A stretch of DNA of 27,087 nucleotides from positions 1-27,087 of IMG/VR virus record IMGVR_UViG_3300043436_004896; one strand, written 5' to 3'. The DNA comes from a virus. The translations under genes and the position numbers were made by a program. The notes under the pieces are model-generated. The model saw only the letters and a list, made by a program, of their open reading frames with translations. It was not told the origin of the DNA and made no database searches. This document shows positions 4,856-26,936 of the stretch, one piece after another. Each line of letters starts with the position of its first letter. The stretch's first letter is position 1.

Positions 4856-4892
4856 AACTTTTGTATATTTGTATTATAAATTATGTGAATAA

Positions 4893-4933: not shown

Positions 4934-4943
4934 AAGTATAGTA
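4917..4943. promoter_or_regulatory. Operator palindrome 2
   Basis: Arms TACTATAC (4917-4924) and GTATAGTA (4936-4943) are perfect inverse copies with an 11-base A-rich spacer. The half-site matches that of operator 1, giving four half-sites in 51 bases. The wider spacing suggests the two dimers contact each other or bind half-sites of neighbouring palindromes. Its right end lies ~44 bases before the repressor ATG, so it may also control the repressor. Confidence 0.65.
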
Positions 4944-4987
4944 ATTTTTACAAATTTTAACATTTTAAAAAAGATAAATAACTGATT

Positions 4988-11025: not shown

Positions 11026-11645
11026 ATTTCAATAGTTTGATTTTGATAATTAAACTGAATATTATATTTTTCTGTTACCACACTCGAAGGCTGATAAAAA
11101 GAAACTTGATAAGGCACTAATTGTGTTTTTACCGAAAATAACGCACCGGTAATAGACAAATTCAATTCGATTCCAACCGCTAACAAAGCAGCTCTATCAG
11201 TAGAAGAAATAGCTCCATTATACGGCAAATCAATTGTAGTGTACACTGGACCACTTAAACCAGGTGTCATAAAAATAGCTTGTAACAATTGATCTGTTGG
11301 AATAACCGACATCGTTCCTGAAGTATCTTTCACATCCCTGATATAAGATGTAGTTAAATCGAATTCTTTGTCAATTGCATTGTAATTTACCACCCACATC
11401 ATAGCGTTTTCTTCATGGATAAAAGAAGCTGCATCTACGAAACGTTTTAAAGCCAAAATATAATCGATAGTTACATCTTCAAACTGAGTAGGTAAAACGG
11501 CACTCAATAATTCAGGTACATCTGCTAAAACATATCTTCTTTCAACTTCTAATAAAATAGTATCAGTACCCGCCAAAAGCGAATCTATTTTATCCTGGTT
11601 CAAAGGTTCGTATAAAACTATTTTTCCTATTGGTTTAATTGCCAT
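11022..11645 (-). CDS. Tail or baseplate protein, unknown family
   Basis: Protein of 207 residues with a mixed helical N-terminal half (LLEVERRYVLADVPELLSAVLPTQFEDVTIDYILALKRFVDAASF) and a beta-rich C-terminal half (YNGAISSTDRAALLAVGIELNLSITGALF, then QVSFYQPSSVVTEKYNIQFNYQ). No motif is recognised. It overlaps the tail fibre start by four bases (ATGA) and lies between the large baseplate protein and the fibre, so it probably belongs to the tail tip that carries the fibre. Confidence 0.65.
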   Translation of the reverse strand: MAIKPIGKIVLYEPLNQDKIDSLLAGTDTILLEVERRYVLADVPELLSAVLPTQFEDVTIDYILALKRFVDAASFIHEENAMMWVVNYNAIDKEFDLTTSYIRDVKDTSGTMSVIPTDQLLQAIFMTPGLSGPVYTTIDLPYNGAISSTDRAALLAVGIELNLSITGALFSVKTQLVPYQVSFYQPSSVVTEKYNIQFNYQNQTIEI

Positions 11646-11657
11646 TTCTTTTCTTTT

Positions 11658-11774
11658 TTAATCACAATAATCATCTTCACAATAATCAGCAAAACAATAT
11701 ATTCGATATACTACCGTAGTAATATACTGCGGCACTTTTACAAAAATTACATGTATGGTATTGTTAATCGACAT
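11658..11774 (-). CDS. 38-residue Cys/Asp-rich peptide
   Basis: Short frame beginning MSINNTIHVIFVKVPQYIT and ending DYCEDDYCD, with four cysteines and a strongly acidic end. It overlaps the 3' end of the large tail protein by 11 bases and fills the otherwise gene-free space before the next tail gene, leaving 12 bases. A metal-binding tail-tip peptide is conceivable. The evidence is only the coupling and the lack of other content here; it might be fortuitous. Confidence 0.4.
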   Translation of the reverse strand: MSINNTIHVIFVKVPQYITTVVYRIYCFADYCEDDYCD

Positions 11775-14112
11775 AATCTGTAACTATTTGGTGTAAATTT
11801 TCTAATAATAACACTTCGCTTCTTCCTTTAGTAAAATCAATAGTAATTCTAGTTGGAATAAACTTTTTAATATCACGCCATAAAAAACGCCCAATTTCTC
11901 TAGGAAATAAACAACCGATTGCACTACCTTCAATTTTTACTAAAGCTTCAGGTTGCACATCATGGTATATTTTAGCCATCGCTACACCATAACGAATATC
12001 TTCTGTTTGTCCAAAACGTTTCCAGCTTTCACGCCATTCGTTATCTTCGGTTTCATATCCAATTATATATTGTTCAGATTCACCAACTGATAAATTTAAA
12101 AAATCAGTTATATTGGTTCCGATTCCTGAAGGATGATCTATTAATTGTGAATTGATTTGCAAAAAATAAGCACCACCAAAAGTCGCCGTTAAACTCCATG
12201 CTTCAGTAGAACTGCTAGCCAAATCATTCATTAAAATATCATTACCACCAAACGTTACATAAAACAATTCAGGATTCGCATTTATAGCTACATACGAATC
12301 ATAACTAATAAAATAATGATAGAACCAAGGTTGCAATGGAAATAGATTTTCATACGATAAAACAGCTACCACACCATAACCACCCGCCGTTCCATAAATA
12401 GGTCGTCTAAAACGAAATTGTTTTTCTGTTAAATCAGCAATTGAATCACCATGAAATATTGAAATACTTGTTGTGGTAGAAAAATCAATATTTCTAGTAT
12501 ATATATCTTCCCATGTTCTTAATTCAGTTATTTTCACTGATAAGCTTTTAACCACATAACTATAAAACCAAGGTTGCGTAAAATCAGCAGATAAAGGCGC
12601 ATGTAGTTTAAAATCAAAAAAACCATTTTGAGGATAATTCAAATCTTTTAATTCTAAATTAGCAGAAACAGTTTCAGGTTTAGAAGTATAGTAATCACCC
12701 ACTGTAATTAAACTGTTATAATCTGAAGAAGCAGTAACTTTTTTACAAGTTAAACGATTATTTTTTTCATCTGATTCAGGCAACTTAGAAGAAACTATTA
12801 TATTGGATCCACATAATAAATCATATTTATAAGACCTTGAAAACTCTTTTTCTTCAATTGAGTTTATTACAGCAATACCACCACTTGTATATCTTGATAT
12901 TGATTCTAAATTAATTTTATAATCAATAGAACGATCTATATATTCGTCTGAAATTTTTAAATATTTACGGTTTAAAATTGAAAAATAATTATTAACATAA
13001 TCTGTTTCATTTTCAGCCTTTGCAGGACTTGTTCCATAATTTAAAATTTTTATAACTTCTAGATGCAATGGTTTAACAAAACCCTCAACAAAAGAAAGCC
13101 CTAAATATGATGTTAAAATATAACGTAATTTAGATTCTCTATTAATTGAACTAAAATTTAAAATACCATTTGTTTTCCAAAACGAAAACATATCTTTTGG
13201 CGCAGCATACAAAATAGAATTACCTGTTGTATTATCTTGAATGGCATAATCAGGGATTAAATTACCATCTTCATCACAATTCCAATCAATTTCAACTGTT
13301 TTCCATGGTGAAACTATTGATACAGTTGGTGTTTTAAAAAATACCAAATCCATCACATTTTTAGTTAGTGTTTCTGTTGAAACATATACACCATTAGTTG
13401 TGTAATTATACACCAATTGGCTTTCTTCATGCTTGCGATTGATTCCTTCAATATACCAGGTATCACCTTGACCATATAAAGTACAGCCTAAACTGTTTAA
13501 TAATAATTCAAGGATTTCATACGCATTTTTTCGTTTAGGCATTACTTCACCTACTAACAAAATCACTTCAATTTCACCATCTAAATACGTTGCACCATTT
13601 ACCACAATTTCATCCCAACGGTAATCTGTTACAGCCGATTCAATTGCAGGAGCAAACACAATATTTTTATCTAGCTTTGTGAAACGTAAACATTCTGCAA
13701 TTAATTTAATTACAGATGTTTCTTGTTTGTAGTAGCTATTTGGTAAGTAATTACCTTTCAGTAATCCAATACCATCAGTAGCGGTTAAATCAACAAAAAC
13801 AACGCCGTTATCATATGGTTCCGAATAGAAATCAGGCAATAAATACCCTTCGAATATTAAGTTATTATCCTGATCCTCTACCGTTACTAAATAACGTTTT
13901 TCGTTACCACTATATAAGTGAAAGAATTTACCATCGGTTTTATCATTTACCATAAGGTTAAACTGAAATTCCGAAGCCATAATAGACTGGTATTTATCAT
14001 CAGCACCATTATAGATAAGTTTTGGAGCGCCTACAGCTGTAAACTCTTCAATTAAGTTACGATCATTCGTAAACTTATCTATAATTTTTACTATGATATT
14101 GGTAATATTCAT
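11764..14112 (-). CDS. Large tail tip / baseplate protein (Tal- or gp27-like position)
   Basis: Protein of 782 residues directly after the tape measure, where siphoviruses encode the distal tail and hub proteins. The first ~220 residues (EFQFNLMVNDKTDGKFFHLYSGNEKRYLVTVEDQDNNLIFEGYLLPDFYSEPYDNGVVFVDLTATDGIGLLKG, then AYEILELLLNSLGCTLYGQGDTWYIEG) resemble hub proteins: paired beta barrels followed by a helical insert and a domain that reads out on itself. The rest is beta-rich with many aromatic residues. It probably closes the tail tube and anchors the fibre. Exact homology cannot be shown by eye. Coupled to the tape measure by TAATG. Confidence 0.7.
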   Translation of the reverse strand: MNITNIIVKIIDKFTNDRNLIEEFTAVGAPKLIYNGADDKYQSIMASEFQFNLMVNDKTDGKFFHLYSGNEKRYLVTVEDQDNNLIFEGYLLPDFYSEPYDNGVVFVDLTATDGIGLLKGNYLPNSYYKQETSVIKLIAECLRFTKLDKNIVFAPAIESAVTDYRWDEIVVNGATYLDGEIEVILLVGEVMPKRKNAYEILELLLNSLGCTLYGQGDTWYIEGINRKHEESQLVYNYTTNGVYVSTETLTKNVMDLVFFKTPTVSIVSPWKTVEIDWNCDEDGNLIPDYAIQDNTTGNSILYAAPKDMFSFWKTNGILNFSSINRESKLRYILTSYLGLSFVEGFVKPLHLEVIKILNYGTSPAKAENETDYVNNYFSILNRKYLKISDEYIDRSIDYKINLESISRYTSGGIAVINSIEEKEFSRSYKYDLLCGSNIIVSSKLPESDEKNNRLTCKKVTASSDYNSLITVGDYYTSKPETVSANLELKDLNYPQNGFFDFKLHAPLSADFTQPWFYSYVVKSLSVKITELRTWEDIYTRNIDFSTTTSISIFHGDSIADLTEKQFRFRRPIYGTAGGYGVVAVLSYENLFPLQPWFYHYFISYDSYVAINANPELFYVTFGGNDILMNDLASSSTEAWSLTATFGGAYFLQINSQLIDHPSGIGTNITDFLNLSVGESEQYIIGYETEDNEWRESWKRFGQTEDIRYGVAMAKIYHDVQPEALVKIEGSAIGCLFPREIGRFLWRDIKKFIPTRITIDFTKGRSEVLLLENLHQIVTDYVD

Positions 14113-16460
14113 TATCGTTTTCTACTATTTTTATTTACAGCACGTTCTATAACCAATTCCAAATCGGAACCAGCTAATCTAAAACCGCCTTCTATATTTA
14201 CATTTACACCTTGATCACCACTTTGCATCATTCCCCAAAGGTTGCCTTGTTGTTTTTGGTTTAAGATTAATTCACCACTATTTACACGTGCTAGAATTTT
14301 ATCACCATATAAAGAAGTGCCAGGAACAACACCACCATTTGCAAATGCAGGAGCACCACCGCCACCAGCTATATTAGATAAAGCAGATTTTGCTAAAGTT
14401 CCTAAAGCAACCAAAGCAATACCAGCTGCAATAGCCACTACCGGATTTAAAGAAGTAAGCGCTTTTTTAATTCCACTTACAGAAATACCAATTCCAATTG
14501 CTAATTTTCCAACCTGGATTGCCATATCCGCTAATGCAGTTATCATTAAAGTCCAAACAGATTGAATTGATAAACCACCCGCAATAGATTGACCTAACAT
14601 TTCACCAAAACCAACAGCAAAACTTTCAGCTGTAGATTCCATTACCTGAGCAATACCCTCATTAAAAAGTTTTGCATTTTCTTGCATTTTATATTGCTCA
14701 GCCGAAATTGAAATTACAGCATTTTCAGTAATAGTTTGTGCAGCAGCCCAACTTTGTAAATAAGCTTCAGTATCTAATGGTTGCAAAGAAAGATTCAAAT
14801 CTTTTAAAGAAGTTAATGGTTTTTGAAGCTCATTTAGTTTAATCTGAACTTCATCTATTCTTTGCTGATACAATAACCACTCACGATTAGATTCAGCCGT
14901 TTTAGATTGTAATTCTTTTAAATCTGAAATTTGTTTTTCAAAATAAGCAGCAGTACCTACTTTTAAAACATCACCTAATTTTTTAGCACCTTTTCCAATT
15001 CCAGCAACAACACCTTCTTCAGCACCAGTTTCAACAGAAGTTTCTACTTCATTTGTTAAAGATTCAGTATCAACATTTACATAGGCTATTTTTTTTCTAG
15101 AAAGGGTTCCATCAATAGCTTCATTAATATTTTTTGAAGTATCAACCGCAAATGCTTTTACATCCGCAGAAGCTTCTTTTACAAAACTTTTAACATTATC
15201 AACTTGCCCTGTAAAAGCATTTTTTAAAATATCTGGAATAGCTTTAAAATCACCAGTTAAAATTGCTTTAACTAAAGAACCAATACTTTTAAAACTATTA
15301 ATAATAGTTGTACCCGCTAATTTAAAACCATCAATTATCAAACTAACTACTAACTTACCAGCAGTATATAATTGTTTAAATGATAAAATAATATATTGAA
15401 CAGCACCTCTTACTAACATTGATTCATTATATAAATCAATAAAGTAATTTGCCACATCTACAATTCCTTTTTTTACAGACGACCAATTTTTAACTAAAGC
15501 ATAAATCAATAAACCAACACCCGCAATAACTAAGCCTATTGGACCAGTCATTGTAGTAAAAGCAATACCTAAAGCACTAATACCCGCTGTAATCATTGGA
15601 AGTAAAGACATAAAACTACCAACAGCTAAAATTAACGGTCCTATAGCTGCTAAAATACCCGCTACAACTACAATCATTTTTTGTGCTTCAGGCGAAATAT
15701 TTCTAAACCATTCTGCTAAATCTTGTAAACCATCAATTAATGGTGAAATAAAATCTAAAATTATACTACCAATTGAATCAGCAAAAGAAGCAATTGAATC
15801 CTGCAAAGTTGACATTCTACCTTTAAAAGTTTGCGCCTGTAAATCCATAGCTCCGCTAAAGTTTACATTACCAATACCTAATAAATAGTTTTGAATGTCT
15901 GTTGCGTTTTTTGCAACCGTTGTAGTAACACCTTGAAAAGTAAAAGAAACATTTTCACCTTCCGATTTTGCTTTGATTCCAAACTCTTTTAAACGTTCAA
16001 ATTCACCCGTACTAGCATCAGCAACCGCTTCAATCATTTGATTTAAGCTTTTTCCCATTGCACTAGCAGTATTACCATAAGAAGTCAATGCTTCTTCAGA
16101 TGGATCTAATCCTAAATTTTTAAGTTTAATGAATGCATCTAAAACCTCTTCCATTTGGTAAGGTGTTTCAGCGGCAAAAGATTGTATTTGTTTAAATGCG
16201 CTATCAGCTGCATCTTGATTTCCTTGAAACGTAGATAGCAAAGAAGTACGTAAAGTTTCAAAATCAGCAGCAGTTTTAACCGCCATAGTACCCAAACCAA
16301 GTATTGGCGCTGTTAAGCCTAAAGATAATGAAGAACCAATAGAAGTAAGTTTATCGCCCATTTTAGCAATATCACGCTGTGCATTTTGCATCTGTGTGCT
16401 AAATTGCTGTAAATCAGCACTAAACTTAATATTGATACTCGCTAAACTTCCAGCCATCAC
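14112..16460 (-). CDS. Tail tape measure protein
   Basis: Protein of 782 residues that sets tail length and passes through the tail tube at ejection. The N-terminus (INIKFSADLQQFSTQMQNAQRDIAKMGDKLTSIGSSLSLGLTAPILGLG) is the common start of tape measure proteins. Helical segments follow, then a hydrophobic region (about 260-325), and a second Ala/Gly/Ile-rich hydrophobic region near 670-725 (IAIGIGISVSG to LGTLAKSAL) ending in GGGGAPAFANGG. At ~0.15 nm per residue this predicts a tail of roughly 115-120 nm, an estimate from the family rule. It starts a new transcription unit: a terminator and a 21-bp repeat promoter precede it. Start at 16460 or the adjacent ATG at 16457. Confidence 0.92.
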   Translation of the reverse strand: MMAGSLASINIKFSADLQQFSTQMQNAQRDIAKMGDKLTSIGSSLSLGLTAPILGLGTMAVKTAADFETLRTSLLSTFQGNQDAADSAFKQIQSFAAETPYQMEEVLDAFIKLKNLGLDPSEEALTSYGNTASAMGKSLNQMIEAVADASTGEFERLKEFGIKAKSEGENVSFTFQGVTTTVAKNATDIQNYLLGIGNVNFSGAMDLQAQTFKGRMSTLQDSIASFADSIGSIILDFISPLIDGLQDLAEWFRNISPEAQKMIVVVAGILAAIGPLILAVGSFMSLLPMITAGISALGIAFTTMTGPIGLVIAGVGLLIYALVKNWSSVKKGIVDVANYFIDLYNESMLVRGAVQYIILSFKQLYTAGKLVVSLIIDGFKLAGTTIINSFKSIGSLVKAILTGDFKAIPDILKNAFTGQVDNVKSFVKEASADVKAFAVDTSKNINEAIDGTLSRKKIAYVNVDTESLTNEVETSVETGAEEGVVAGIGKGAKKLGDVLKVGTAAYFEKQISDLKELQSKTAESNREWLLYQQRIDEVQIKLNELQKPLTSLKDLNLSLQPLDTEAYLQSWAAAQTITENAVISISAEQYKMQENAKLFNEGIAQVMESTAESFAVGFGEMLGQSIAGGLSIQSVWTLMITALADMAIQVGKLAIGIGISVSGIKKALTSLNPVVAIAAGIALVALGTLAKSALSNIAGGGGAPAFANGGVVPGTSLYGDKILARVNSGELILNQKQQGNLWGMMQSGDQGVNVNIEGGFRLAGSDLELVIERAVNKNSRKR

Positions 16461-16477: not shown

Positions 16478-16528
16478 GCTAAAGTACTTTTAGGTGTTTA
16501 TTTTGTTGTGTAACTTTGTTCCGTTTTT
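16478..16528 (-). promoter_or_regulatory. Candidate late promoter of the tail operon
   Basis: On the minus strand a 21-bp box (16528-16508, containing CGGAACAAAGTTACAC) is identical to that upstream of the portal gene. Exactly 21 bases downstream lies TACTTTAGC (16486-16478), matching TAATTTAGC at the portal, followed by 17 bases to the tape measure ATG. The short element fits a -7 region (TAnnTT). The box covers the -33 region and beyond, where a phage or host activator could bind. Confidence 0.7.
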
Positions 16529-16535
16529 AAATAAA

Positions 16536-16566
16536 AAAAAGCCTTTGCATTACACAAAGGCTTTTT
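16536..16566. terminator. Bidirectional intrinsic terminator between head and tail operons
   Basis: AAAAAGCCTTTG (16536-16547) and CAAAGGCTTTTT (16555-16566) form a perfect 12-bp stem with loop CATTACA, with A and T runs on both sides. On the minus strand it ends the transcript of the capsid/chaperone genes seven bases before the 21-bp box of the tail promoter. Confidence 0.88.
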
Positions 16567-16600
16567 CGAGTTTAACCAAAATTCAAAAAGAAGAAACACG

Positions 16601-17086
16601 TTAACATTCAGGGATTTTACCACGAGCTTTATCTACTCTTGCCCAAAAATCTTTCATTTCATTAATTTCTTTTTCAATTTCTTCATTTGTTTTGATATTC
16701 TGCATTTCAATAATATCAGATTCCCATGGGAATGGCATATATTCATGCTCAGAAACTTTAGATTTTAAATGTGGTAATAAGCTTACGTAGCTTAATTTTC
16801 TCATTATGATTAAACGCTCTTTAGATAAACCATCTTCTTTACGTCGATAGCCTTCTAATGTGTTAGCAAATTGCCGATAGGTTAAGGAATAAAAGTAATC
16901 TACTTGCAATCCTATTTCACCTAAAGCAATGCTTTCTAGTTCATCCCAGGTTAGTTCTTTGCGCTCCTCTTTTTCGGCGCTATCTGCTTTCCCTGGTCGG
17001 CGTTTTGTTTTGGCATGGATTCTACTATTCCTGCAATAATTTGCTGAAGCAATGCGGTGTTTGTAAATACAGTATCTACAATACAT
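16601..17086 (-). CDS. Tail assembly chaperone, frameshift extension (gpT-like)
   Basis: The open frame runs from 17086, but its first ~33 codons overlap the upstream chaperone gene and look unnatural (MYCRYCIYKHRIASANYCRNSR). Translation more probably enters at 16987 by a -1 frameshift at GGGAAAG, giving ...DQGK-ADSAEKEERKELTWDELE and 128 further residues. The fusion would be about 240 residues. The extension has a helical, charged pattern (ELTWDELESIALGEIGLQVDYFYSLTYRQFANTLEGY) like gpT-type chaperones that link the tape measure to tail tube subunits. Its location just before the tape measure is the invariant place of G/GT pairs. It is unlikely to be a free-standing gene. Confidence 0.8.
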   Translation of the reverse strand: MYCRYCIYKHRIASANYCRNSRIHAKTKRRPGKADSAEKEERKELTWDELESIALGEIGLQVDYFYSLTYRQFANTLEGYRRKEDGLSKERLIIMRKLSYVSLLPHLKSKVSEHEYMPFPWESDIIEMQNIKTNEEIEKEINEMKDFWARVDKARGKIPEC

Positions 17087-17322
17087 GCACTACTTTCACT
17101 TTCATCATCAATAGGATTTCCAGCATTATCTGCTGCTGCTATAACTAAGTTTTCAATTAAATCAAAAAACTCATAAGGAATATCATCTTTAATACCATCC
17201 AACACACTTAAACGTGCTAAAGTTTGATTCAAAGTAGTATCACCATATACACGCCCTAAAACTCTAAAAAAGCCCAGCCCGAATTTCAGGCTGTAGCTTT
17301 CATTATTTAATGTGATATTCAT
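16951..17322 (-). CDS. Tail assembly chaperone, gpG-like
   Basis: Protein of 123 residues made without frameshift; it coats the tape measure during tail assembly and is not in the finished virion. N-terminal beta/helix part MNITLNNESYSLKFGLGFFRVLGRVYG, then helices and a basic C-terminal tail (PKKRSAKN). It lies between the major tail protein and the tape measure, as in lambda-like and HK97-like phages. The last 12 codons follow a GGGAAAG heptamer at which a share of ribosomes would slip back one base and make the G-T fusion. It starts one base after the tail tube gene stop. Confidence 0.85.
   Translation of the reverse strand: MNITLNNESYSLKFGLGFFRVLGRVYGDTTLNQTLARLSVLDGIKDDIPYEFFDLIENLVIAAADNAGNPIDDESESSACIVDTVFTNTALLQQIIAGIVESMPKQNADQGKQIAPKKRSAKN
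16961..16993 (-). promoter_or_regulatory. Programmed -1 frameshift site with downstream hairpin
   Basis: The heptamer G-GGA-AAG (16993-16987) lies in the correct frame of the chaperone gene and is the same heptamer that lambda uses for G-T frameshifting. Slipping to GGG-AAA enters the 16601-ending frame. Six bases on, GCGCC (16980-16976) can pair with GGAGCGC (16967-16961) with one bulge, a plausible stimulator. Spacing fits known -1 sites. Confidence 0.85.
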
Positions 17323-17323
17323 A

Positions 17324-17746
17324 CTAAGCCGGAACTGTTCCTACTGTATAATCACCTGTTCCTTTAAAACTTGCATCACCAGTAGCAAAACCACTTGTAG
17401 GAGCTGCAAAGTTAATCGATTCAATATAGGCATTCCCTGAGATGATAATATCACCAACAGTTCCAGTTGTGAATTCGATTGCTACTTGCGTTCCTGCTTT
17501 GTGCTTGTTTAATAAAGATGCAAAATCTTCTTGCGTAGATAAAGCCGCTTTATCAGCTACTAACATATTTGTTGCTACACCCCAAGTGTAGTTTCCTGAA
17601 ACTACTAAATTACCATCGGTATCTTTAGTAGCAATTTCTTCTAAAGACATAGAAGAATTAAAAGAACATTCTGTAGCGTGAAAGATAGTTTCACCATCTA
17701 CACTAATTCGAAGGTTCTTACCTTTGTATGGTTGCCCTGCTGCCAT
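17324..17746 (-). CDS. Major tail tube protein (TP901-1-like family)
   Basis: Protein of 140 residues that polymerises to the tail tube. MAAGQPYKGKNLRISVDGETIFHATECSFNSSMSLEEIATKDTDG and the later NAYIESINFAAPTSGFATGDASFKGTGDYTVG are the two recognisable beta-rich blocks of the TP901-1 major tail family, in which a DGE...FH..E and a T.K. pattern recur. Length is near the family's 140-170. It follows the tail terminator and precedes the chaperones, as expected. Being a structural protein it should be abundantly translated. Confidence 0.9.
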   Translation of the reverse strand: MAAGQPYKGKNLRISVDGETIFHATECSFNSSMSLEEIATKDTDGNLVVSGNYTWGVATNMLVADKAALSTQEDFASLLNKHKAGTQVAIEFTTGTVGDIIISGNAYIESINFAAPTSGFATGDASFKGTGDYTVGTVPA

Positions 17747-17750
17747 TGTT

Positions 17751-18098
17751 TTATAATTTTATAATGTTAATTACTCCTGCATACGAATTATTTGCTTCCA
17801 TCCACATTAAAGATGAAGATTCAAATTCGATATTTTGTGAAGCTTTTACTAATTCAATCATTTGATCAGTGAATTGTAACGCTTCATTGTATTGGTTTTC
17901 CTGGAACCAAAAAAACAAAGTAGCACTAAACATGTCAGCATCTTTGCTTTCACCTTCTTGACTTTCTAAACTGTAGGTTGCAAAAGGAAATTGCACATCT
18001 TCAGGCGCAATAACCGGATACATTCTCTGCTGCATTACATCTGTAAAAAATGTACTAGAAGTAAAAAAACTGAATATTAACTCTGAAAACTGAAACAT
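17751..18098 (-). CDS. Tail terminator / completion protein (DUF3168-like)
   Basis: Protein of 115 residues. The block RMYPVIAPEDVQFPFATYSLESQEGESKDADMFSATLFFWFQENQYNEALQFTDQMIELVK matches the gp17/DUF3168 type, where v-yP...aP.....fPfi-ys is followed by a strand and a helix with a bury pattern. Family members form the hexameric ring that ends the tail tube and mates with the head. Position directly before the tube gene fits. It overlaps the upstream gene by one base (TAATG). Confidence 0.8.
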   Translation of the reverse strand: MFQFSELIFSFFTSSTFFTDVMQQRMYPVIAPEDVQFPFATYSLESQEGESKDADMFSATLFFWFQENQYNEALQFTDQMIELVKASQNIEFESSSLMWMEANNSYAGVINIIKL

Positions 18099-18619
18099 TA
18101 TCTACTTAATTTATCAATTCGTTTTTGTATGTATCGTGCTACTTTAGCTTCTGATTCTTGCGTAACCGCACCTTTTGTTTGTTCGTAAGCATTTTTCATA
18201 AAAGGATTTCCTTTTGTTCTACGAATTGCTGCACCATTATTAGCACCCGCTTTTCGTTTACGCTTGAATCCTTTGTTATACACATTGAATCCATATTCTA
18301 CAAAATGTCCGTACCAACCATCTTGTTTGCCTTTTGCTCTAGGTCCTACATATACCGTAGGATTATCTTTTGCACTTCCTTTTCTACCCACAATAGTGCC
18401 AATAGATTTTTTTAGGTTTCCTGGTTGTATTACTCGCCCACGTGCCGTGTGTTTCTTTTTAGAAATTGGTGCCGTTTGCTTTGCCGCTTTAACCGTACTG
18501 CTTGCCACTTGTTTAAGAATACCAATGATTTCCCTCTTTTTACTTTTATCATCACTTAATGCTTTGATTTTTATTTCAAGTTCAGGAAAACCTGTTATTT
18601 CTACCATTGGCTTTGCCAT
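18098..18619 (-). CDS. HK97 gp10-like tail component
   Basis: Protein of 173 residues. Typical gp10 features: MVEITGFPELEIKIKALSD at the start, a basic middle with AKQTAPISKKKHTARGRVIQPGNLKKSIGTIVGRKG, and the G.Y.HFVEYG motif (YGHFVEYGFNVYN), then GNPFMKNAYEQTK, all of which recur in HK97-gp10-type proteins that take part in the head-tail joint. It lies between the head closure gene and the tail terminator, in the usual order. Confidence 0.88.
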   Translation of the reverse strand: MAKPMVEITGFPELEIKIKALSDDKSKKREIIGILKQVASSTVKAAKQTAPISKKKHTARGRVIQPGNLKKSIGTIVGRKGSAKDNPTVYVGPRAKGKQDGWYGHFVEYGFNVYNKGFKRKRKAGANNGAAIRRTKGNPFMKNAYEQTKGAVTQESEAKVARYIQKRIDKLSR

Positions 18620-18948
18620 TACACATACATTTTAACCATTAATTGCAAATGCTTTTTTCGACCTAATTCTTTTACGTGAATTACTTCAAATGTTTCATTT
18701 GTATCTTTTACCTTTAATTGATTGCTTTTTGCTTTGATTTCGGCATTGTAGCGAATTGTATACGTACGATTCACTAAATGTCGAATTTTACCTTCAGCTT
18801 CTTCATCACCGGATATTTCTTTCATGAAGGCAAAAGGATTCGCAATTACTTCTTCAGTAGTTGTTACACTTCCTGTAGAAGTAGGCACTTTCACTAACTC
18901 AATAACTTCAATTTTGCGGTCCATTTGCCCAATGAAAGGATTCTCCAT
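18619..18948 (-). CDS. Head closure / head-tail joining protein (SPP1 gp16-like)
   Basis: Protein of 109 residues with a beta-rich fold. GQMDRKIEVIELVKVPTSTGSVTTTEEVIANPFAFMKEISGDEE and RTYTIRYNAEIKAKSNQLKVKDTNETFEVIHVKELGRKKHLQLMVKM follow the head-tail joining family pattern: m..r.....-...G....W/F.......G.E......-f-iRy...i-....v......y.I..v.... It forms the ring below the connector. TAATG overlap with the gp10-like gene. Confidence 0.85.
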   Translation of the reverse strand: MENPFIGQMDRKIEVIELVKVPTSTGSVTTTEEVIANPFAFMKEISGDEEAEGKIRHLVNRTYTIRYNAEIKAKSNQLKVKDTNETFEVIHVKELGRKKHLQLMVKMYV

Positions 18949-18950
18949 GA

Positions 18951-19502
18951 CTAGAATTTTTTATATGATCTAAGTAAAGACATTACAGTAGTAGAAAATA
19001 CTTCTGCTCTATCTTCTCTTCGTTCGTACATATCAGCAACCATTAATAACACGGCTTGTGCAATAGGTTTATCAATCGTTTCCATCCCTACATTAATAGT
19101 AACGGTAACTGCATCGAATCTATCTTGAACTGTAGGTAAATCACCTTTAAAACGAATAGCAAATCTTTTGCTAGTTTCAGCAGTTAACGTGTAGTTTTCC
19201 GCATCTATTGTTTTTTCAGCTTCAGTGCCCTGCTCAAAATACTTAACAGATGTAACCGCTTTAACCGGAAACGCTTCAAACACCAAAGGATTATCAAAGC
19301 CAGTCATTTTAAATACGATGTTTTTATCTGTAACATGACCACCGATGTAGTTTTCCGCTTGCGTTACAGCTGCATCGATATAATCCTGGATTAAATCATC
19401 TTCATCTGTAAAATCAGCATCCACTCTAAGGTGTTTTTTAGCTTTTGCTAACGTTACTACATCTACTGAAGTTCCTGCTGTTATTTGAATATCTGTTATC
19501 AT
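18951..19502 (-). CDS. Head-tail connector (HK97 gp6-like)
   Basis: Protein of 183 residues. The N-terminal part VVTLAKAKKHLRVDADFTDEDDLIQDYIDAAVTQAENYIG is the signature of gp6-like connector proteins (slee.k.hLRvd...dD..i...i.aA......), and the C-terminal helix PIAQAVLLMVADMYERRED also fits. The middle (about 65-150) is a beta domain larger than in the smallest members. It forms the ring under the portal. It begins six bases after the small head protein gene. Confidence 0.9.
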   Translation of the reverse strand: MITDIQITAGTSVDVVTLAKAKKHLRVDADFTDEDDLIQDYIDAAVTQAENYIGGHVTDKNIVFKMTGFDNPLVFEAFPVKAVTSVKYFEQGTEAEKTIDAENYTLTAETSKRFAIRFKGDLPTVQDRFDAVTVTINVGMETIDKPIAQAVLLMVADMYERREDRAEVFSTTVMSLLRSYKKF

Positions 19503-19508
19503 ACCCTA

Positions 19509-19697
19509 TTATTTTTTAACCAGTTCTACAGCTTTAGCTTCGACAAGTTCGTTTGCTTGTTTTTCTTCAATTTCAAAAACTTGACCAGCACTCCATGCTA
19601 ATCCATAAGTTCCTGCTAGATTTACTAAAGCTTCTACTTTTACTTTTTTAGAAGAAGGTGCTTTTTCAGCACCTTCTTTATTTTTAGCATCTGCCAT
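19509..19697 (-). CDS. 62-residue small head protein
   Basis: Small protein with a Lys/Ala-rich start (MADAKNKEGAEKAPSSKKVKVEALVNLAG) and a compact domain (GTYGLAWSAGQVFEIEEKQANELVEAKAVELVKK). Proteins with this v.vn..g...y..Gdv.e......a..lv..g.a... pattern often lie between capsid and connector genes in HK97-like phages. A role as capsid accessory or decoration is possible, not proven. Confidence 0.7.
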   Translation of the reverse strand: MADAKNKEGAEKAPSSKKVKVEALVNLAGTYGLAWSAGQVFEIEEKQANELVEAKAVELVKK

Positions 19698-19707
19698 CTT
19701 AATTTAA

Positions 19708-21012
19708 TTAAGCAGTTAACAATGCGTTTTTAGCAAATGCTTTAGGATTAGCAATTTGCATGTCAGCATGTGTATTTAACACTAAACGTACTGAATTTGA
19801 CAAGTCAGCAGAATAAGGATTAATTGACACATTGATTGCGCCCCATTGACCAATAGTCATTTGCGAGAAATCACCATAAATTAATGGATAAACAGCAGTT
19901 CCTGAAGCATCTAAAACTGGAACTAAAGAAGAAGAAACCGCTTTAACACCATCAATTAAACCACCTTCATATAAGAAACGACCTGATCCAGCATCTTTAG
20001 TGATTTGTTTTAAAGCCGCTTTTAATTTAGGATGTAATAAATATCCTAAAGATTGTTCTGTAGCATTATCTTCTTCGATTAACGCTTGTAATTCCACAAT
20101 TCTTGCCCAAGTAGAAGCACCTGATCCTGATTGAGTAGATACATTTACACCTGAAACAGATAATAAACCTGTAGGAGCAATACCACCCGCACCATTAATA
20201 CATGCCGCATGTAATAATTGCGCAAAACCATTGCTTAAACCATTCATAATCATTGTTTCTACATCTAAAGATGATTGTAACAATAATTGGTTAGAAATAT
20301 CAACCGCACCACCCGCACGTTTAGGTGCTAAAGTAGGACCAGCAAATGTTTTCTTTTGCGGTGTAATTGCAGCAGTTTCTGCTAGGAATTCCATTGCAAA
20401 ATCATTTCCAACTACTAAAGGAATATTTCCACCGCTTAAATTAGTTAAGAAAGTTGCTCCTAAATCTTCAAAAACCAAACGAGGTCTTAAAGGCTCCACC
20501 ATTCTAGGCGCTTGATTTTGCACTAATGCTCCACCATAAGATCCTGAATCTTGCGTTACTGATTGCTGTGTAGCACGTAACATAGATAATGGTAAAGAGA
20601 AAACCGTATCAGCAGGAGTTGAAACACCCGCATTTCTACTTTCTTCAACACCCATTTCATGGATTTCTTTTTCAATTCCTGTAAGCTTACCGCCACCCAT
20701 TGCTGGATTAGCTTCTCTTAAAGCTTTACTAATTGAGAAACGCTTTTGCATATTCTCTTTTTCTCTTGCCTCACCATCGTTACCAGGAACGAATGTTGCA
20801 GATGCAGCAGCTGCTCTAGCTTCCACTGCTTCCATTTCTAAGGCTCTATTGATTTGCATGTCTAAAGCTTCCATTTCAGCTTTACGCGTATCAAATTCCC
20901 CATTTTCAGCATCGGTGAAATCTCTGTTTTCAGCCTTTGCCTTGTTAATTAACGCTAACTGCAATTCGTTTGCTGCATGGCGTTGTTGCTTTAAAGCATC
21001 ACTTTTTTTCAT
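19708..21012 (-). CDS. Major capsid protein, HK97 fold
   Basis: Protein of 434 residues. Residues 1-~105 form a charged helical delta domain (ALINKAKAENRDFTDAENGEFDTRKAEMEALDMQINRALEME) that scaffolds assembly and would be removed by the protease encoded next to it. The mature part begins near residues 110-140 and shows the fold's usual elements: MVEPLRPRLVFEDLGATFL, the N-arm and axial domain, then LAPKRAGGAVDISNQLLLQSSLDVETMIMNGLSNGFAQLLHAACINGAG, and the C-terminal strand VRLVLNTHADMQIANPKAF. The order portal-protease-capsid is conserved. Cross-link residues cannot be assigned by eye. Confidence 0.95.
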   Translation of the reverse strand: MKKSDALKQQRHAANELQLALINKAKAENRDFTDAENGEFDTRKAEMEALDMQINRALEMEAVEARAAAASATFVPGNDGEAREKENMQKRFSISKALREANPAMGGGKLTGIEKEIHEMGVEESRNAGVSTPADTVFSLPLSMLRATQQSVTQDSGSYGGALVQNQAPRMVEPLRPRLVFEDLGATFLTNLSGGNIPLVVGNDFAMEFLAETAAITPQKKTFAGPTLAPKRAGGAVDISNQLLLQSSLDVETMIMNGLSNGFAQLLHAACINGAGGIAPTGLLSVSGVNVSTQSGSGASTWARIVELQALIEEDNATEQSLGYLLHPKLKAALKQITKDAGSGRFLYEGGLIDGVKAVSSSLVPVLDASGTAVYPLIYGDFSQMTIGQWGAINVSINPYSADLSNSVRLVLNTHADMQIANPKAFAKNALLTA

Positions 21013-21023
21013 TTTAACCGGAT

Positions 21024-21650
21024 TTATTTATTATTCAACAATTCAAACTCTTTTTCTCTTAAATTTCTGTTGTGAAACGAAAGTTTTTCAGGATTTACAA
21101 CTTCAATACCTTTAATCATTTCCGCACGAATTTCTTCTAATGTTTGTGCTTCACGTTTTAAAGCATCAGGATTAGAACCAATAGGAACAATGGACCATTC
21201 CAACAATTCTTGTTCATCAAAATAAATCACATCTTTATCTTCTCCTAACTTTTCATCACCCCAATGACCACGTTTTGGATTTGCACCAATAGAAGCCATA
21301 CGTAATGTTCCCGCTTGTACTTTTTTCCAAACCTTTTCAGCAATTGGATTTGTATCTGCATCTTCAAAACGAATTCTACCAATTAACTGATCACCATCTG
21401 TAAAAACCGAAGATGTTCCAATTAACATATCAGGATTATCAGAATAAGAACGATGCGCATAAAAAACTACTGGATTAGCTTCGTATCTTTTTAAATCCCA
21501 CCCACTCATTTTAAATACCGTTCCATAGGTATCAATAGCTTCAGTAGAAATAACGAATTCCGCTTCGCGGTTTTTTATGTTTTCTTCGGATAAAGCACGA
21601 ATAACGGCTTCACGAACTACTGCTTTATTTAATTCTAGTTTCATATTCAT
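21024..21650 (-). CDS. Prohead protease, HK97 / U35 family
   Basis: Serine protease of 208 residues that trims the capsid delta domain. Family blocks: REAEFVISTEAIDTYGTVFKMSGWDLKRYEANPVVFYAHRSYSDNPDMLIG with the catalytic His66, then GTLRMASIGANP with Ser120 as nucleophile, and LLEWSIVPIGSNPDAL with the acid Glu151. N- and C-terminal charged tails are probably self-cleaved. It overlaps the portal stop as TAATG and lies just before the capsid gene. In-frame starts at 21650 and 21644 are both possible (MNMKLEL). Confidence 0.94.
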   Translation of the reverse strand: MNMKLELNKAVVREAVIRALSEENIKNREAEFVISTEAIDTYGTVFKMSGWDLKRYEANPVVFYAHRSYSDNPDMLIGTSSVFTDGDQLIGRIRFEDADTNPIAEKVWKKVQAGTLRMASIGANPKRGHWGDEKLGEDKDVIYFDEQELLEWSIVPIGSNPDALKREAQTLEEIRAEMIKGIEVVNPEKLSFHNRNLREKEFELLNNK

Positions 21651-22858
21651 TACTCATTATTATTTGAAGTTCCATCAGCCGATCGTAATAAAGATGCATT
21701 CTCTAAAGTTTGCATATTAACCGGTAAGAAAATTTGATCTAATCCATCAATTGGATTTAATTCTTCTAAAGCACGAATTTCATTTGGTGTATAAATTCCA
21801 AAGTTTACCATTGCTGTATAGTAATTACGTTTTGATTCCAAATCACCACGTAACAAAGCATTGATATTCATTTTGAAATAATATCCTGATTCGCGCGTAA
21901 AACATTTTTTATTGATTTCTTGTTCGAAACGTGTAACCCAAGGAAGAATTGAATCTTGAACATGTTCGATTCCTTGCTGATAGATGTTTAAGTAAGTACC
22001 AGCTGACATGTCTTTAATTTTTACCGGTGCAAGATTTAACCATCTACAGCATTCGATAACCGCTAATTTGTTAGTTTCTAAAAACATAGATTCAGCAGGA
22101 GTAATAGAAATACTTTTGTACTTCATTCCTTCATCTAACATTGGAACTTTGAAACGTTCAGCAGAATTCATTTTAGAAACGAATCCATCTTCGATAGCTT
22201 TTTTATTTTTAGAATCAACTGATTTATCAGATTCGATAACACCATGACCAACACCCTGATGCCTATAAACTTCAGATGCGTATTCTTGCGTATCTAAAGA
22301 AATACCTAACTGCTTTGCAGCGAATTTTATAACTGAATTACCACGAATTCCATCAAAAGAAAATGCTTTAAAATGAATCATGTTTTCAGCTGGAATAATT
22401 CCATAACCTTTTACATCGTAGATTATTTTTAAACCTACAACCGATACTTTCACATCATCGTAATTATGAAATATAATAGCTTCTTCAAATCCTGATTGCC
22501 CATTACGAGCTATAGAAGAAAAACCATCACCTTTAAGAATACATGAAATAGTCATGATTTTCCACCAATCAAAAGAAGTCATTAATTCGTTTGGTGAACC
22601 TGAAAGCAAATAAGAAACTGGATGTTCATCACCCGAATTTCTTCCTGTTTCAGACTTAATAAACACTGATTTAGGAAGTTTTGCGATGTCATTAGAAATT
22701 ACATCGACACCATTGTAAAAAGCCGAAATAGTTAAAGAAGAATCCGCTGTTGCATTTGCACCAGGCTTTTTAATCATAAAATTAAATAAAGAATTAGATG
22801 TATTATCTACTTCTCTATTCTGTATTTTATTAGGAAACAATTCACTTAAAACGCCCAT
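21650..22858 (-). CDS. Portal protein, HK97 type
   Basis: Protein of 402 residues that forms the dodecameric ring for DNA entry. Family features: SLTISAFYNGVDVISNDIAKLPKSVF (the start of the portal domain), HPVSYLLSGSPNELMTSFDWWKIMTISCILKGDGFSSI, the AENMIHFKAFSFDGIRGNSVIKFAAKQLGISLDTQEYASEVYRHQG block, and MFLETNKLAVIECCRWLNLAPVKIKD with DSILPWVTRFEQEINKKCF. Length is close to the HK97 portal. It opens the head operon and is preceded by a 21-bp repeat promoter element. Confidence 0.95.
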   Translation of the reverse strand: MGVLSELFPNKIQNREVDNTSNSLFNFMIKKPGANATADSSLTISAFYNGVDVISNDIAKLPKSVFIKSETGRNSGDEHPVSYLLSGSPNELMTSFDWWKIMTISCILKGDGFSSIARNGQSGFEEAIIFHNYDDVKVSVVGLKIIYDVKGYGIIPAENMIHFKAFSFDGIRGNSVIKFAAKQLGISLDTQEYASEVYRHQGVGHGVIESDKSVDSKNKKAIEDGFVSKMNSAERFKVPMLDEGMKYKSISITPAESMFLETNKLAVIECCRWLNLAPVKIKDMSAGTYLNIYQQGIEHVQDSILPWVTRFEQEINKKCFTRESGYYFKMNINALLRGDLESKRNYYTAMVNFGIYTPNEIRALEELNPIDGLDQIFLPVNMQTLENASLLRSADGTSNNNE

Positions 22859-22876
22859 AACTTAGCTTTTATATGT

Positions 22877-22927
22877 GCTAAATTATAGGCGTTTAGTGTT
22901 TTAAGTGTGTAACTTTGTTCCGTTTTT
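22877..22927 (-). promoter_or_regulatory. Candidate late promoter of the head operon
   Basis: The 21-bp box (22927-22907, containing CGGAACAAAGTTACAC) is identical to the one at 16508-16528. TAATTTAGC (22885-22877) follows after exactly 21 bases, and the portal ATG after another 18. Two independent copies at equal distance from the starts of two operons argue for a shared promoter or activator site. It begins five bases past the stop of a 50-residue gene. Confidence 0.7.
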
Positions 22928-23459: not shown

Positions 23460-23635
23460 GATATTTCTTTATCGATTTTAAAACAGATTAATACTATCAG
23501 GACCATTAAAGCATACACTGCTATTTGTCGCACGATTCTTTGTTGGATGAATTGTAAATCCAATAGTAATGAAGCTGCAAAAATTAGCAGCATCATTACG
23601 ATTAATATACTTACTGAAATTATATATTTTCTCAT
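23456..23635 (-). CDS. 59-residue membrane protein
   Basis: Two predicted transmembrane helices: residues ~5-25 (IISVSILIVMMLLIFAASLLL) and ~36-52 (RQIAVYALMVLIVLICF), with a polar linker of ~10 residues. The frame is fully coupled: its ATG overlaps the preceding stop as ATGA, and its own stop overlaps the next ATG as ATGA. With the 77-residue protein it may form one membrane complex. No family recognised. Confidence 0.6.
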   Translation of the reverse strand: MRKYIISVSILIVMMLLIFAASLLLDLQFIQQRIVRQIAVYALMVLIVLICFKIDKEIS

Positions 23636-23877
23636 TTTTTTAGGTGTTTGTTTTTTACTTTTCTAAAACTATCATAAGATGAATACTTGTACTCACCAAA
23701 ATATTCGAAATACAAATCATTGACAGCTTCAAAGCATTCGATTTCTGTTTTATGATTTTTTAATTGTTGGAAATAATATTCATAAAATCCGGTAACGGTT
23801 CCAATTCTACGAATGATTTCGTTTTCTTTTTTTAATTTTTCAATTAAGGCGGCTAAATGTTGTTCCTGTGCTGTCAT
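23632..23877 (-). CDS. 81-residue coiled-coil protein, unknown
   Basis: A coiled-coil N-terminus (QEQHLAALIEKLKKENEIIRRIG) precedes an aromatic helical domain (YEYYFQQLKNHKTEIECFEAVNDLYFEYFGEYKYSSYDSFRKVKNKH). The domain reads like a small conserved fold of flavobacterial phages with a repeated F/Y-E-x-V-N...YF..FG..kYsSYdSFR pattern. ATGA overlap with the terminase stop side. Function unknown. Confidence 0.6.
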   Translation of the reverse strand: MTAQEQHLAALIEKLKKENEIIRRIGTVTGFYEYYFQQLKNHKTEIECFEAVNDLYFEYFGEYKYSSYDSFRKVKNKHLKK

Positions 23878-25583
23878 ATGTAAATGTCATCTGTTGGTTT
23901 ACTATATTTTGAAACTTCTTCTTCAGGTGAATAAGAAGCGGCAATTGCATTAATTAAAGCCGCTATTCCATCAATCCTTTTTTTATTTTTATGACTAGCA
24001 CCTTTACTAATCATAATATTACCTTTTGAATCTTCAATTGGAACACAAGCCGAAAGCATCCATTCCATAACTGGATTTCCATCATGTTTAATTTTACCAT
24101 CATAAACTAATTTTTCTAACATTTTTGTTGGAAAATTTAGCTTTGGCATAGTTTGCGATAATTCAGAAACATTAATTCCTTCATCCATCATATCAGAAAC
24201 CAAATGTGAAGCATTCCAGGGATCAACTTCGACACGTTTAACATTGTATTTTATATAATTTTCTTTGATATACGTTAATAGAAAATTATAATCAACTCTA
24301 TTTCCAGGTGTTGCAATCATAAAACCAGAATCAATCCAATATCTATAAGGAACACCATCGTTTTTACTTCTTTTATCAATATTATCTTCAGGACAAAATA
24401 AAAATGGTTTTAAATATCTATAATCATTTTCATCAGGTTCAGATAAAATAATAAATGCTGTAATATCTGTCGTAGATGACAAATCTAATCCTGAATAACT
24501 TCCAAAGTTTTTGAATTTAGATAACGGAATTTTATCAACTTTGTTGTTTTTCCAAATTTCAGTAGGAATCCAAATACTTGCTCCATCAACCCACATATTT
24601 AAGTGTTTTGTTTTGAAGTTTGGAATCTTTGAAGGTTGATTTTTAGCTTTGATAAATTCTTTTTGAAGGTTATCAATATCCAATCCGTTTTTTAGCAATG
24701 GATTTGCTTTTTCCCAATTCTTTTCATCTTCCCAATCATCCTCTTCATCCAGGTCGTGAATCATAATCCAAAGGTGATGATCTATTTTTCTACCTTCTAA
24801 AACTTCTATAACAGAATCTTCATAGTTTTTACAAACCGAACCGATGTTAGTACCCGCTGTAGTGATATGATATGTTATTGGCTGGCGGCGTTGTACTGAT
24901 GATGATTCTAGATTTTCTTTTACACCATCATCTTTGTGCGCATGGTATTCATCGATAATCGCTACATGCGCATTGATTCCATCTTGCGTTTTGGAATCAC
25001 CGCCCAAAGGTCGCATTTTAGATTTTGTAGGATGAAAACCCACGATGCGTTGCATGGTATAGAATCCCATTTGCGCCAAAGCCTTGTTTGCTACTGGTGA
25101 ATTAATAAATGAAGCAGCTTGTTCCCAACAAATTTTTGCCTGATCTTCTTTTGTGGCTCCGATGTAGATTTCGGCTTCCATTTCCATATCGAATGACATA
25201 CAGTATAAACCCAAACCCGCCATTTCTGCTGATTTTCCGTTTTTCTTTGCACGTTTATCGTAAATGGTATTTATACGGCGGTTTCCTTTGCTATCCTTCC
25301 ATCCAAATAGGTTATAAATGGTAAATGCTTGATAAGGTGCCAAAACGAATGGTTTTCCTTGCATTTTTCCTTTTGTATGATTTAAGAAGGTAGGAAAAAA
25401 GTTTACGGCACGCATTCCGGCTTCATGGTCCAGGATAAAACCATCTTTTTCAGCAGTTTCTAACCAACCATAAAAACGTTGCACGGCTTTTTTAATGCGG
25501 TTTCCGGTGATAATTTTACCACTTGAAACCGCTTTTGCGTACTGAAACGGAACGGATTGTAGTTGTTTTCTAGTTGGTTTCAT
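23874..25583 (-). CDS. terL: Terminase large subunit
   Basis: Packaging motor of 569 residues. The ATPase half has the terminase-type Walker A, here RAKKNGKS (about 111-118) without the classical GxGKT, Walker B VAIIDEYH (about 208-214) and the coupling motif TTAGT (241-245). The nuclease half has the three acidic positions in SYSGLDLSSTTDITAF (Asp367), VEVDPWNASHL (Asp454) and KKRIDGIAALINA (Asp538), so it should cut DNA. Size and order fit Terminase_1/HK97-like enzymes. ATGA overlaps with both neighbours tie it into one operon. No small terminase partner is recognised in the window. Confidence 0.95.
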   Translation of the reverse strand: MKPTRKQLQSVPFQYAKAVSSGKIITGNRIKKAVQRFYGWLETAEKDGFILDHEAGMRAVNFFPTFLNHTKGKMQGKPFVLAPYQAFTIYNLFGWKDSKGNRRINTIYDKRAKKNGKSAEMAGLGLYCMSFDMEMEAEIYIGATKEDQAKICWEQAASFINSPVANKALAQMGFYTMQRIVGFHPTKSKMRPLGGDSKTQDGINAHVAIIDEYHAHKDDGVKENLESSSVQRRQPITYHITTAGTNIGSVCKNYEDSVIEVLEGRKIDHHLWIMIHDLDEEDDWEDEKNWEKANPLLKNGLDIDNLQKEFIKAKNQPSKIPNFKTKHLNMWVDGASIWIPTEIWKNNKVDKIPLSKFKNFGSYSGLDLSSTTDITAFIILSEPDENDYRYLKPFLFCPEDNIDKRSKNDGVPYRYWIDSGFMIATPGNRVDYNFLLTYIKENYIKYNVKRVEVDPWNASHLVSDMMDEGINVSELSQTMPKLNFPTKMLEKLVYDGKIKHDGNPVMEWMLSACVPIEDSKGNIMISKGASHKNKKRIDGIAALINAIAASYSPEEEVSKYSKPTDDIYI

Positions 25584-25837: not shown

Positions 25838-26106
25838 TATTCAGTTATTTCTTGGTAGTTTTTACGGATTACCGTATCTACTTTGTTACATAGGTCGGTT
25901 AAATAGGTAGAACCTTTGATTTGTTTTACCTGGAATAGATCTTCTAGAACTTGTTCGCATTGTGCTCCTAAAACTTCGGCGTTTGCTTTCATTTCTAAAG
26001 CGGTTTCTGCATTGGCCCCTACTTCATGTAGGGATTCTGCTAACAAATAACACAAAGCCGCTATTTTGTGTGATTGTACTGCTGATTTTTTGTTGTTTGA
26101 GTTCAT
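25837..26106 (-). CDS. 89-residue helical protein before terminase
   Basis: All-helical pattern: SAVQSHKIAALCYLLAESLHEVGANAETALEMKANAEVLGAQCEQVLEDLF, then TYLTDLCNKVDTVIRKNYQEIT. Its size and place two genes before the large terminase allow a small-terminase role, but no DNA-binding helix-turn-helix is evident. Overlaps the recombinase stop by four bases (ATGA). Confidence 0.6.
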   Translation of the reverse strand: MNSNNKKSAVQSHKIAALCYLLAESLHEVGANAETALEMKANAEVLGAQCEQVLEDLFQVKQIKGSTYLTDLCNKVDTVIRKNYQEITE

Positions 26107-26936
26107 AACCTTATGTTGTTAATTGGTGATTGTATTTTACTGATTAAACTATCTGAAATTTGAACGTACATCATGGTTGTTTTTACTGAATTATGGCCCG
26201 CTAACTTTTGGATTAGATTTATATCTGTTCCGTTTTCTACCATATGAGTAAAACAATTGTGTCGCATTTGATGTGTCCAAACTCTTTTTTTTATTCCAGC
26301 TTTAGTTGCAAGTTGTTTTAGTACTTGCGATACACTTCGGCTGCTGTATTGTTCCGAAAATTGACCGCTTAAAATGTATGTTTTGGTTTTGTATTGTTTC
26401 CAATAGTTTTCCAAAAGCGGAACTACGATTTCCGGCAACATTACTTGGCGGTCCTTTTTTCCTTTTCCGTTTAGAATATTAATTACCATTCGTGATCTGT
26501 CGATGTTGGTCCAGGTTAAGTTTATTAATTCTGAAACTCGTAAACCGCATGAATATAGCAGCGCTAATATTACTTTGTGTTTTAGGTTTTCGCAGACATC
26601 AAACATTTTTTGTACTTCTTCCTGGCTTAATACTTGCGGTAACTTTTTTTCTGAACATGGGTATTCAATATGCTTAAATTTTAACGGTTGTTTTCCGGTT
26701 AGTTTGTAGAATAGCTTTACTGCTGATATTCTATGTTTTAATCCGTTTACTGATTTTGCCTGAAGCAACCATTCTTTAATTTGTTTTTCTGATATTTCAG
26801 ATGGTTTTGTAGCGACATTATTAAAGTGTTCTAAAAAGCATCTGACTTGGCTTTTATAATTCTCAATTGTGTTTTGAGAATAGTTTTTTAGTCTTAAATC
26901 TTCGGAATATAATTCCGTATATTTTCCGATGTTCAT
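26103..26936 (-). CDS. Second tyrosine recombinase, XerC/XerD-like
   Basis: Recombinase of 277 residues with the full catalytic set: Arg133 (SCGLRVSEL), Lys158/160 (NGKGKKDRQ), His222 and Arg225 (THQMRHNCF), His248 (LAGHNS) and Tyr257 (MMYVQIS). The N-terminal SAM-like domain (LRLKNYSQNTIENYKSQVRCFLEHFN) binds the core site. Length and motifs fit XerC/D, unlike the longer phage integrase beside attP. It lies at the head of the packaging operon with a four-base overlap to the next gene, so it is probably made late. Roles could be resolving genome multimers, acting on a second site, or a captured integrase from another element; no second tRNA-like site is seen nearby. Confidence 0.92.
   Translation of the reverse strand: MNIGKYTELYSEDLRLKNYSQNTIENYKSQVRCFLEHFNNVATKPSEISEKQIKEWLLQAKSVNGLKHRISAVKLFYKLTGKQPLKFKHIEYPCSEKKLPQVLSQEEVQKMFDVCENLKHKVILALLYSCGLRVSELINLTWTNIDRSRMVINILNGKGKKDRQVMLPEIVVPLLENYWKQYKTKTYILSGQFSEQYSSRSVSQVLKQLATKAGIKKRVWTHQMRHNCFTHMVENGTDINLIQKLAGHNSVKTTMMYVQISDSLISKIQSPINNIRL

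Follow-up and report, generated by a model that had tools for sequence, protein, structure and literature searches.

The late genes of a phage fragment from IMG/VR (record IMGVR_UViG_3300043436_004896, a linear stretch of 27,087 bp that we call the window) carry the same 22-bp repeat, TGTGTAACTTTGTTCCGTTTTT, ahead of both the portal gene and the tape measure gene. We consider it likely that this repeat, referred to here as the late box, is the operator of a phage-encoded dimeric late activator acting at sigma-A-type promoters of the head and tail modules, the regulator being most likely an 81-amino-acid (81-aa) protein of the same phage. All of the analysis was computational. The phage is probably temperate and of siphovirus type, judging from its two genes for tyrosine recombinases and a weak HTH_3-like repressor candidate. 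The sequences closest to it are viral contigs; the relative L017 is apparently a Flavobacterium oncorhynchi prophage.

The positions of the two boxes and of the features around them are collected in Table 1. The initial annotation had reported an exact repeat of 21 bp; there are indeed two copies, and their identity extends over 22 bp. At up to three mismatches the 21-mer has exactly two matches in the window, while shuffled sequences are expected to give none. The element TA(A/C)TTTAGC, said to lie 21 nt downstream, is found there at both copies, as TACTTTAGC at the tape measure gene and TAATTTAGC at the portal gene. Of the distances given from this element to the start codons, that for portal holds, its ATG at 22858 being 18 nt away. 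The 17 nt given for the tape measure gene leads instead to an in-frame GTG (16460); relatives conserve the ATG at 16457, which is 20 nt away. The 12-bp terminator placed just before the tail copy corresponds to a strong stem with a 12-bp core. No comparable terminator precedes the portal copy in the window; several relatives have one at that place.

Close relatives that keep the late genes have not lost the repeats, a loss that the initial annotation had named as evidence against its reading: both copies are kept in G002 and G003, and one copy each is present in the contigs L006 and L012. In more distant phages, with portals ~30-60% identical, the box has a different sequence but the same place and spacing. 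Because the relatives keep this layout, chance, already thought very unlikely when the repeat was first described, can be excluded as the source of the arrangement. Exact matches to the box in unrelated contigs (L003-L005, L007, L011 and L013) have no -7 element at +21 and were discarded as chance.

When the boxes of different phages are aligned on the -7 element, most of them are approximate palindromes, for example GTTTGAAATTCAAAC, GTTAAAATCTTTAAC, TCCAACAAAGTTGGA, GGAACAAAGTTTCC and GTTACATAATGTAAC. Over the portal promoters of 31 phages, symmetry is highest for a centre at exactly -30.0 nt, counted from the initial T of the -7 box; the mean self-complementarity there is 0.70, compared with 0.41 at the next non-adjacent centre and a maximum of 0.52 when letters were permuted within columns. 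The palindrome of the window itself is imperfect (4/6 pairs). Once established, the rule was checked on 14 distant relatives with an identifiable -7 element, which are viral contigs or prophages of Flavobacterium whose portal identity goes down to ~26-39%; the anchors were -7 sequences picked by eye, such as TAAGTTTGC, TAAACTTTGC and TATAATTGC. No centre from -20 to -40 scored above -30 in 13 of these 14, prophages with the full TAAGTTTGC among them. Perfect six-of-six dyads at -30 are present in L031, L158, L161 and L183, and L174, which is counted among the 13, scores 3/6 with a tie between -25 and -30. L063-type phages depart from the -30 rule.

The sequence of the box is specific to each phage and is shared by its promoters. 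In the 18 phages with both promoters recognisable, the portal and tape measure boxes agree at a mean of 17.0 of 18 positions within a phage, as against 9.5 of 18 between phages; the within-phage match is 15-18 of 18 in 17 of them, and the observed sharing is reached by 0 of 100,000 permutations. The spacer just downstream of the box shows almost no within-phage sharing (7.3/17 vs 5.6/17). Scanning each phage with its own box gave two sites in most and three in a few. In G010 the third box stands in front of the gene that precedes the regulator, the one for the terminase large subunit, while the additional site is near portal in G012, L040 and L041 and near the tape measure gene in G015, G018 and G021. 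Wherever the -7 element is in place, the box site is on the same strand as the late genes.

Sigma-A promoters of Flavobacterium psychrophilum have a -7 box, TAnnTTTG, at -12 to -5 (PMC9723704). In most relatives the -7 element of the putative late promoters is TAnTTT(T/A)(A/G)C, a variant of that box. The full TAAGTTTG is present in L158, L160 and L161, Flavobacterium prophages with the same layout, in which the element reads TAAGTTTGC and matches the sigma-A -7 box completely. In kind and place this -7 element resembles that of Bacteroidota sigma-A promoters (PMC9723704). The late promoters differ upstream of it, where sigma-A promoters of Bacteroidota have TTG at -33 and these have a phage-specific dyad instead: TTG at a spacing of 19-21 was found in 0 of 51 promoters, and anywhere at a spacing of 17-23 in one of the 51, compared with 2.9 in shuffled sequences. 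By the F. psychrophilum numbering (PMC9723704) the centre of the dyad is at about -42 from the predicted start, and the box therefore covers the -33 region. Since this covered region has no TTG, the promoters would be expected to be silent until the regulator binds. The operators of class II activators are centred near -41.5 and overlap the -35 region, and the late box, with its centre at about -42, occupies this position.

The late genes of the window all run on the minus strand, in the order terminase large subunit, 81-aa protein, small membrane protein, 77-aa protein (DUF5698-like), a 50-aa open reading frame and portal, followed by protease, capsid, connector and tail genes, tape measure, and then tail, holin and endolysin genes. 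The terminase small subunit is encoded beyond the window and was seen in the close relative G003. The 81-aa protein was found in all 18 phages first compared, and each of the ~110 portal-bearing sequences listed, many of them near-duplicates, has a relative of it. In three distant relatives (L054, L056 and L058) the regulator gene overlaps the late box with its own 3' end, and portal begins shortly after. Profile searches for the family gave hits in 17 of 400 genomes of a Flavobacterium genus sample, at a looser cut-off, and in 8 of 400 of a family sample, in addition to order-level genomes. A portal-based scan of genome contigs yielded one prophage only, the regulator-profile scan of Flavobacterium genomes being more productive, and scans with single proteins added almost no further relatives.

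The 81-aa protein matched no Pfam or NCBIfam family (HTH_3, MerR, LuxR, ArpU and others) and no credible PHROG, and a PDB sequence search returned noise only. Its AlphaFold2 model, with a mean predicted local distance difference test (pLDDT) score of 91, consists of a predicted coiled coil and a helical domain. Among viral predicted structures, those that resemble this model belong to uncharacterised phage proteins of small size. In BFVD, S0A4G7 and other small viral proteins like it have the same predicted fold; S0A4G7, with template modelling (TM) scores of 0.80/0.85 and 32% identity over 69 columns, evidently belongs to the 81-aa family and has no assigned function.

The C-terminus of this protein covaries with the box. 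Across 30 phages, box distance correlates with the distance between residues 62-81 at a Mantel rho of 0.388 (0 of 2000 permutations), and at 0.379 when portal distance is partialled out (again 0 of 2000). The correlation is weaker for residues 1-26 (0.156), residues 27-61 (0.179) and portal as a whole (0.136), and in 14 other late-module families no 20-aa window beats residues 62-81 on the same phages. Individual pairs of phages illustrate the pattern. G011 and G013 are identical at 51 of residues 1-61 and at 7 of the 20 C-terminal residues, and their boxes differ (10/18); G013 and G016 have 18 of the 20 in common and boxes alike at 17 of 18 positions. G008 and G011, with 36/61 identities in residues 1-61 and 12/20 in the C-terminus, have boxes that match at 17/18. 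Residues 67, 69, 72, 73 and 77 are among the strongest residue-base associations, and as a helix is predicted at 68-80 they would lie on the last helix or at its start. Predicted from the nearest neighbour, the box is recovered at 12.7 of 18 positions using residues 62-81, 11.7 using residues 1-61 and 11.2 using portal; this gain is modest, and the recognition code is therefore not yet predictive.

A different account would have an early-operon protein bind the box, for instance the Myb-like/HNH protein (3000-3728) or else the 148-aa protein (2569-3015); the 81-aa protein would then serve in packaging or in the head, and its C-terminus would follow the box by linkage. In the window no more than ~1 kb separates the 81-aa gene from the portal box. 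Early proteins are comparable in 5-9 phages, and in 7-8 phages the best window of each of these two follows the box about as closely as the 81-aa C-terminus does (comp 28, 0.68 vs 0.71; comp 35, 0.66 vs 0.62). These best windows are, however, maxima of many windows, and when the early-operon families comp 28, 34, 35, 36 and 41 were set against the 81-aa C-terminus in 6-8 phages, none was clearly better and two were about equal. Linkage predicts that the portal N-terminus, which adjoins the box, and the small membrane protein encoded between should track it best, but they give 0.267 and 0.246 against 0.388 for residues 62-81. Because the portal N-terminus beside the box reaches just 0.267, linkage is not the cause of the correlation. 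The tape measure box, moreover, is 7 kb off, yet it matches the portal box. We regard binding by an early protein as unlikely.

Also unlikely is a role for the box as the operator of a repressor that holds the late promoters off in the lysogen, whether the CI-like protein encoded at 4988-5374 or another. A dyad over the -33 region could occlude polymerase, and the same layout could serve a repressor; the weak HTH_3-like gene at 4988-5374 is divergent from the early operon. The control region between that gene and the early operon (4892-4947), however, has palindromes of a different kind, TTACTATAcaaaTATAGTAA and others similar to it, probably the operators of that repressor. No tracking of the box is seen in the CI-like family (comp 46), whose best window gives 0.45 vs 0.63, in five phages only; on these two grounds a CI-type repressor was rejected as the box binder. 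A repressor, furthermore, has no need of the exact -30 placement or of a missing -33 element, and the gene of the co-varying protein directly precedes the late genes and is not beside the repressor.

The initial annotation had offered a late-gene activator and a modified sigma factor as alternatives. A phage-specific or modified sigma factor that reads the box as an unusual upstream promoter element, which the departure of TAnTTT(T/A)(A/G)C from TAnnTTTG and the lack of a -33 TTG might suggest, is most improbable and was rejected: the -7 element matches the sigma-A box, fully in three Flavobacterium prophages and as a near variant elsewhere, the late box alone changes, and none of the window proteins scanned gave a sigma-factor match. 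That a palindromic box is replaced wholesale between phages while the -7 element stays constant fits a dimeric activator. The activator interpretation is well supported, in that dozens of phages combine a co-varying candidate regulator with a phage-specific dyad, which covers the -33 region at a fixed place in two, and at times three, promoters of structural genes.

Several further observations, as well as the early-protein windows and the possible occlusion of polymerase described above, weigh against the 81-aa protein as an activator bound at the late box. Residue 48, which is outside helix 4, is also high-scoring in the residue-base associations, perhaps as a lineage signal. Cellulophaga phage phi39:1 carries a protein of the 81-aa type but has no clear dyad at -30. 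A Foldseek comparison of the model with the PDB gave no match with an E-value below 1, and thus no solved DNA-binding relative. No recognisable tape measure promoter was found in G014, G017, L153, L162 and L163. The portal and tape measure boxes of L040 are unlike (9/18). L040 is a phage fragment and the sole such case; its tape measure box, CGTATATTTTATAC, may reflect a recent exchange of the tail module.

The proposed activator mechanism would proceed as follows. Transcription through terminase, in the phase before, would supply the 81-aa regulator, which would accumulate. Its N-terminal helix may dimerise and its last helix may read the half-sites, so that the dimer would bind DNA over the -33 region of both late promoters and contact RNA polymerase in the manner of a class II activator. 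The bound regulator would activate rather than repress, recruiting or activating host sigma-A polymerase and turning on the head and tail modules together, while the terminator before the tail box would shield the tail promoter against transcription coming from the head module. In G010 the third site lies before terminase, ahead of the regulator's upstream gene, and the switch there would thus be self-reinforcing through positive feedback.

Table 1. Features of the window connected with the late box.
Feature	Coordinates	Strand	Remarks
Late box, putative portal promoter	22906..22927	-	Dyad core CGGAACAAAGTTACA, centre 22915, 30 nt upstream of -7 element
Late box, putative tape measure promoter	16507..16528	-	Dyad centre 16516
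-7 element TAATTTAGC, portal promoter	22877..22885	-	Variant of host sigma-A type; predicted start ~22873
-7 element TACTTTAGC, tape measure promoter	16478..16486	-	Predicted start ~16474
Intrinsic terminator of upstream transcript	16535..16567	-	Strong stem, 15 pairs in scan, 12-bp core; just upstream of tail box
Candidate late regulator, 81 aa, unannotated family	23632..23877	-	Between terminase large subunit and portal; predicted helices 3-25, 28-41, 45-60, 68-80
Helix 4 codons (residues 68-80), proposed recognition helix	23638..23676	-	Residues 67, 69, 72, 73, 77 covary with half-site
Portal gene	21650..22858	-	Pfam PF04860, E-value 1.8e-78; first gene of putative head-module late promoter
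Tape measure gene	14112..16460	-	ATG conserved in relatives at 16457; first gene of putative tail-module late promoter
Terminase large subunit gene	23874..25583	-	Directly upstream of 81-aa gene

Some other features of the window and of its relatives were recorded. The two tyrosine recombinase genes are at 26103-26936 and 5836-7047; the former is just upstream of the terminase large subunit and recurs in G010, G011, G013, G015, G016 and G017. The early protein encoded at 3000-3728 contains an HNH_3 domain; a stretch at its N-terminus resembles Myb by eye, and the protein is kept in most complete relatives. A small gene overlapping it (3682-4002) has, also by eye, the look of a DnaA/TrpR-type helix-turn-helix protein. 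Imperfect 22-nt tandem repeats, TTGCGCTTTTCGTCAATAGGTC, are found at 2201-2288 within the replication initiator gene (1876-2565) and are possibly origin iterons. In G007 (L107), genes at 10788-13118, between the terminase small and large subunits, resemble DNA methyltransferases by eye; this region is variable, with unrelated small genes in other relatives. Scans of the window with Rfam and for tRNAs gave no matches.

A small phage activator acting on a dyad at about -42 is already known from Mu. Mu Mor binds as a dimer to a dyad centred at -43.5 (PMC4287176). Mor and C are both activators of small size; as dimers they occupy a dyad that lies upstream of the -35 region and overlaps it, and the late box likewise overlaps the -35/-33 region, at about -42. 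The Mu promoters are activator-dependent, and related sites allow C to drive several of the late ones. The two systems differ in host sigma factor and promoter type, and in the phages studied here the sites diverge completely from one phage to another. No Mor match (PF08765, the Mor/C family) appeared among the Pfam-A families listed for 40 members of the 81-aa family, and the fold of the solved Mor structure was not matched by Foldseek against the PDB at an E-value below 1. The best reading, by analogy, is that the 81-aa family works like Mu Mor/C, which does not imply kinship with Mor/C. In phages of Gram-positive bacteria, late operons are switched on by ArpU and RinA, small proteins whose genes lie close to those for packaging, in most cases ahead of the one for the terminase small subunit. 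The 81-aa protein is similarly small and near packaging genes, and no sequence match between ArpU/RinA and its family was found in Pfam and NCBIfam searches.

A limited search of the open-licence literature turned up neither a late activator in phages of Flavobacterium or Bacteroides nor a late-gene switch in temperate tailed phages of Bacteroidota. Within that literature the protein family, its Bacteroidota setting, the sigma-A promoters without a -33 element, and the rapid paired divergence of operator and recognition helix appear, on tentative grounds, to be undescribed. It seems fairly likely that the 81-aa proteins make up a new, still unannotated family of late activators in Bacteroidota phages in which recognition helix and operator diverge together fast, with many phages having their own orthogonal activator-promoter pair. 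If so, the late switch of these phages would be named, and functions would be given both to a protein family that has no Pfam or NCBIfam model and to a class of promoters. The many phage-specific pairs would be possible orthogonal expression tools for Flavobacterium and its relatives, whose promoters are atypical. They would also form a natural data set for a protein-DNA recognition code, which could be worked out and tested directly because operator and recognition helix have diverged together many times.

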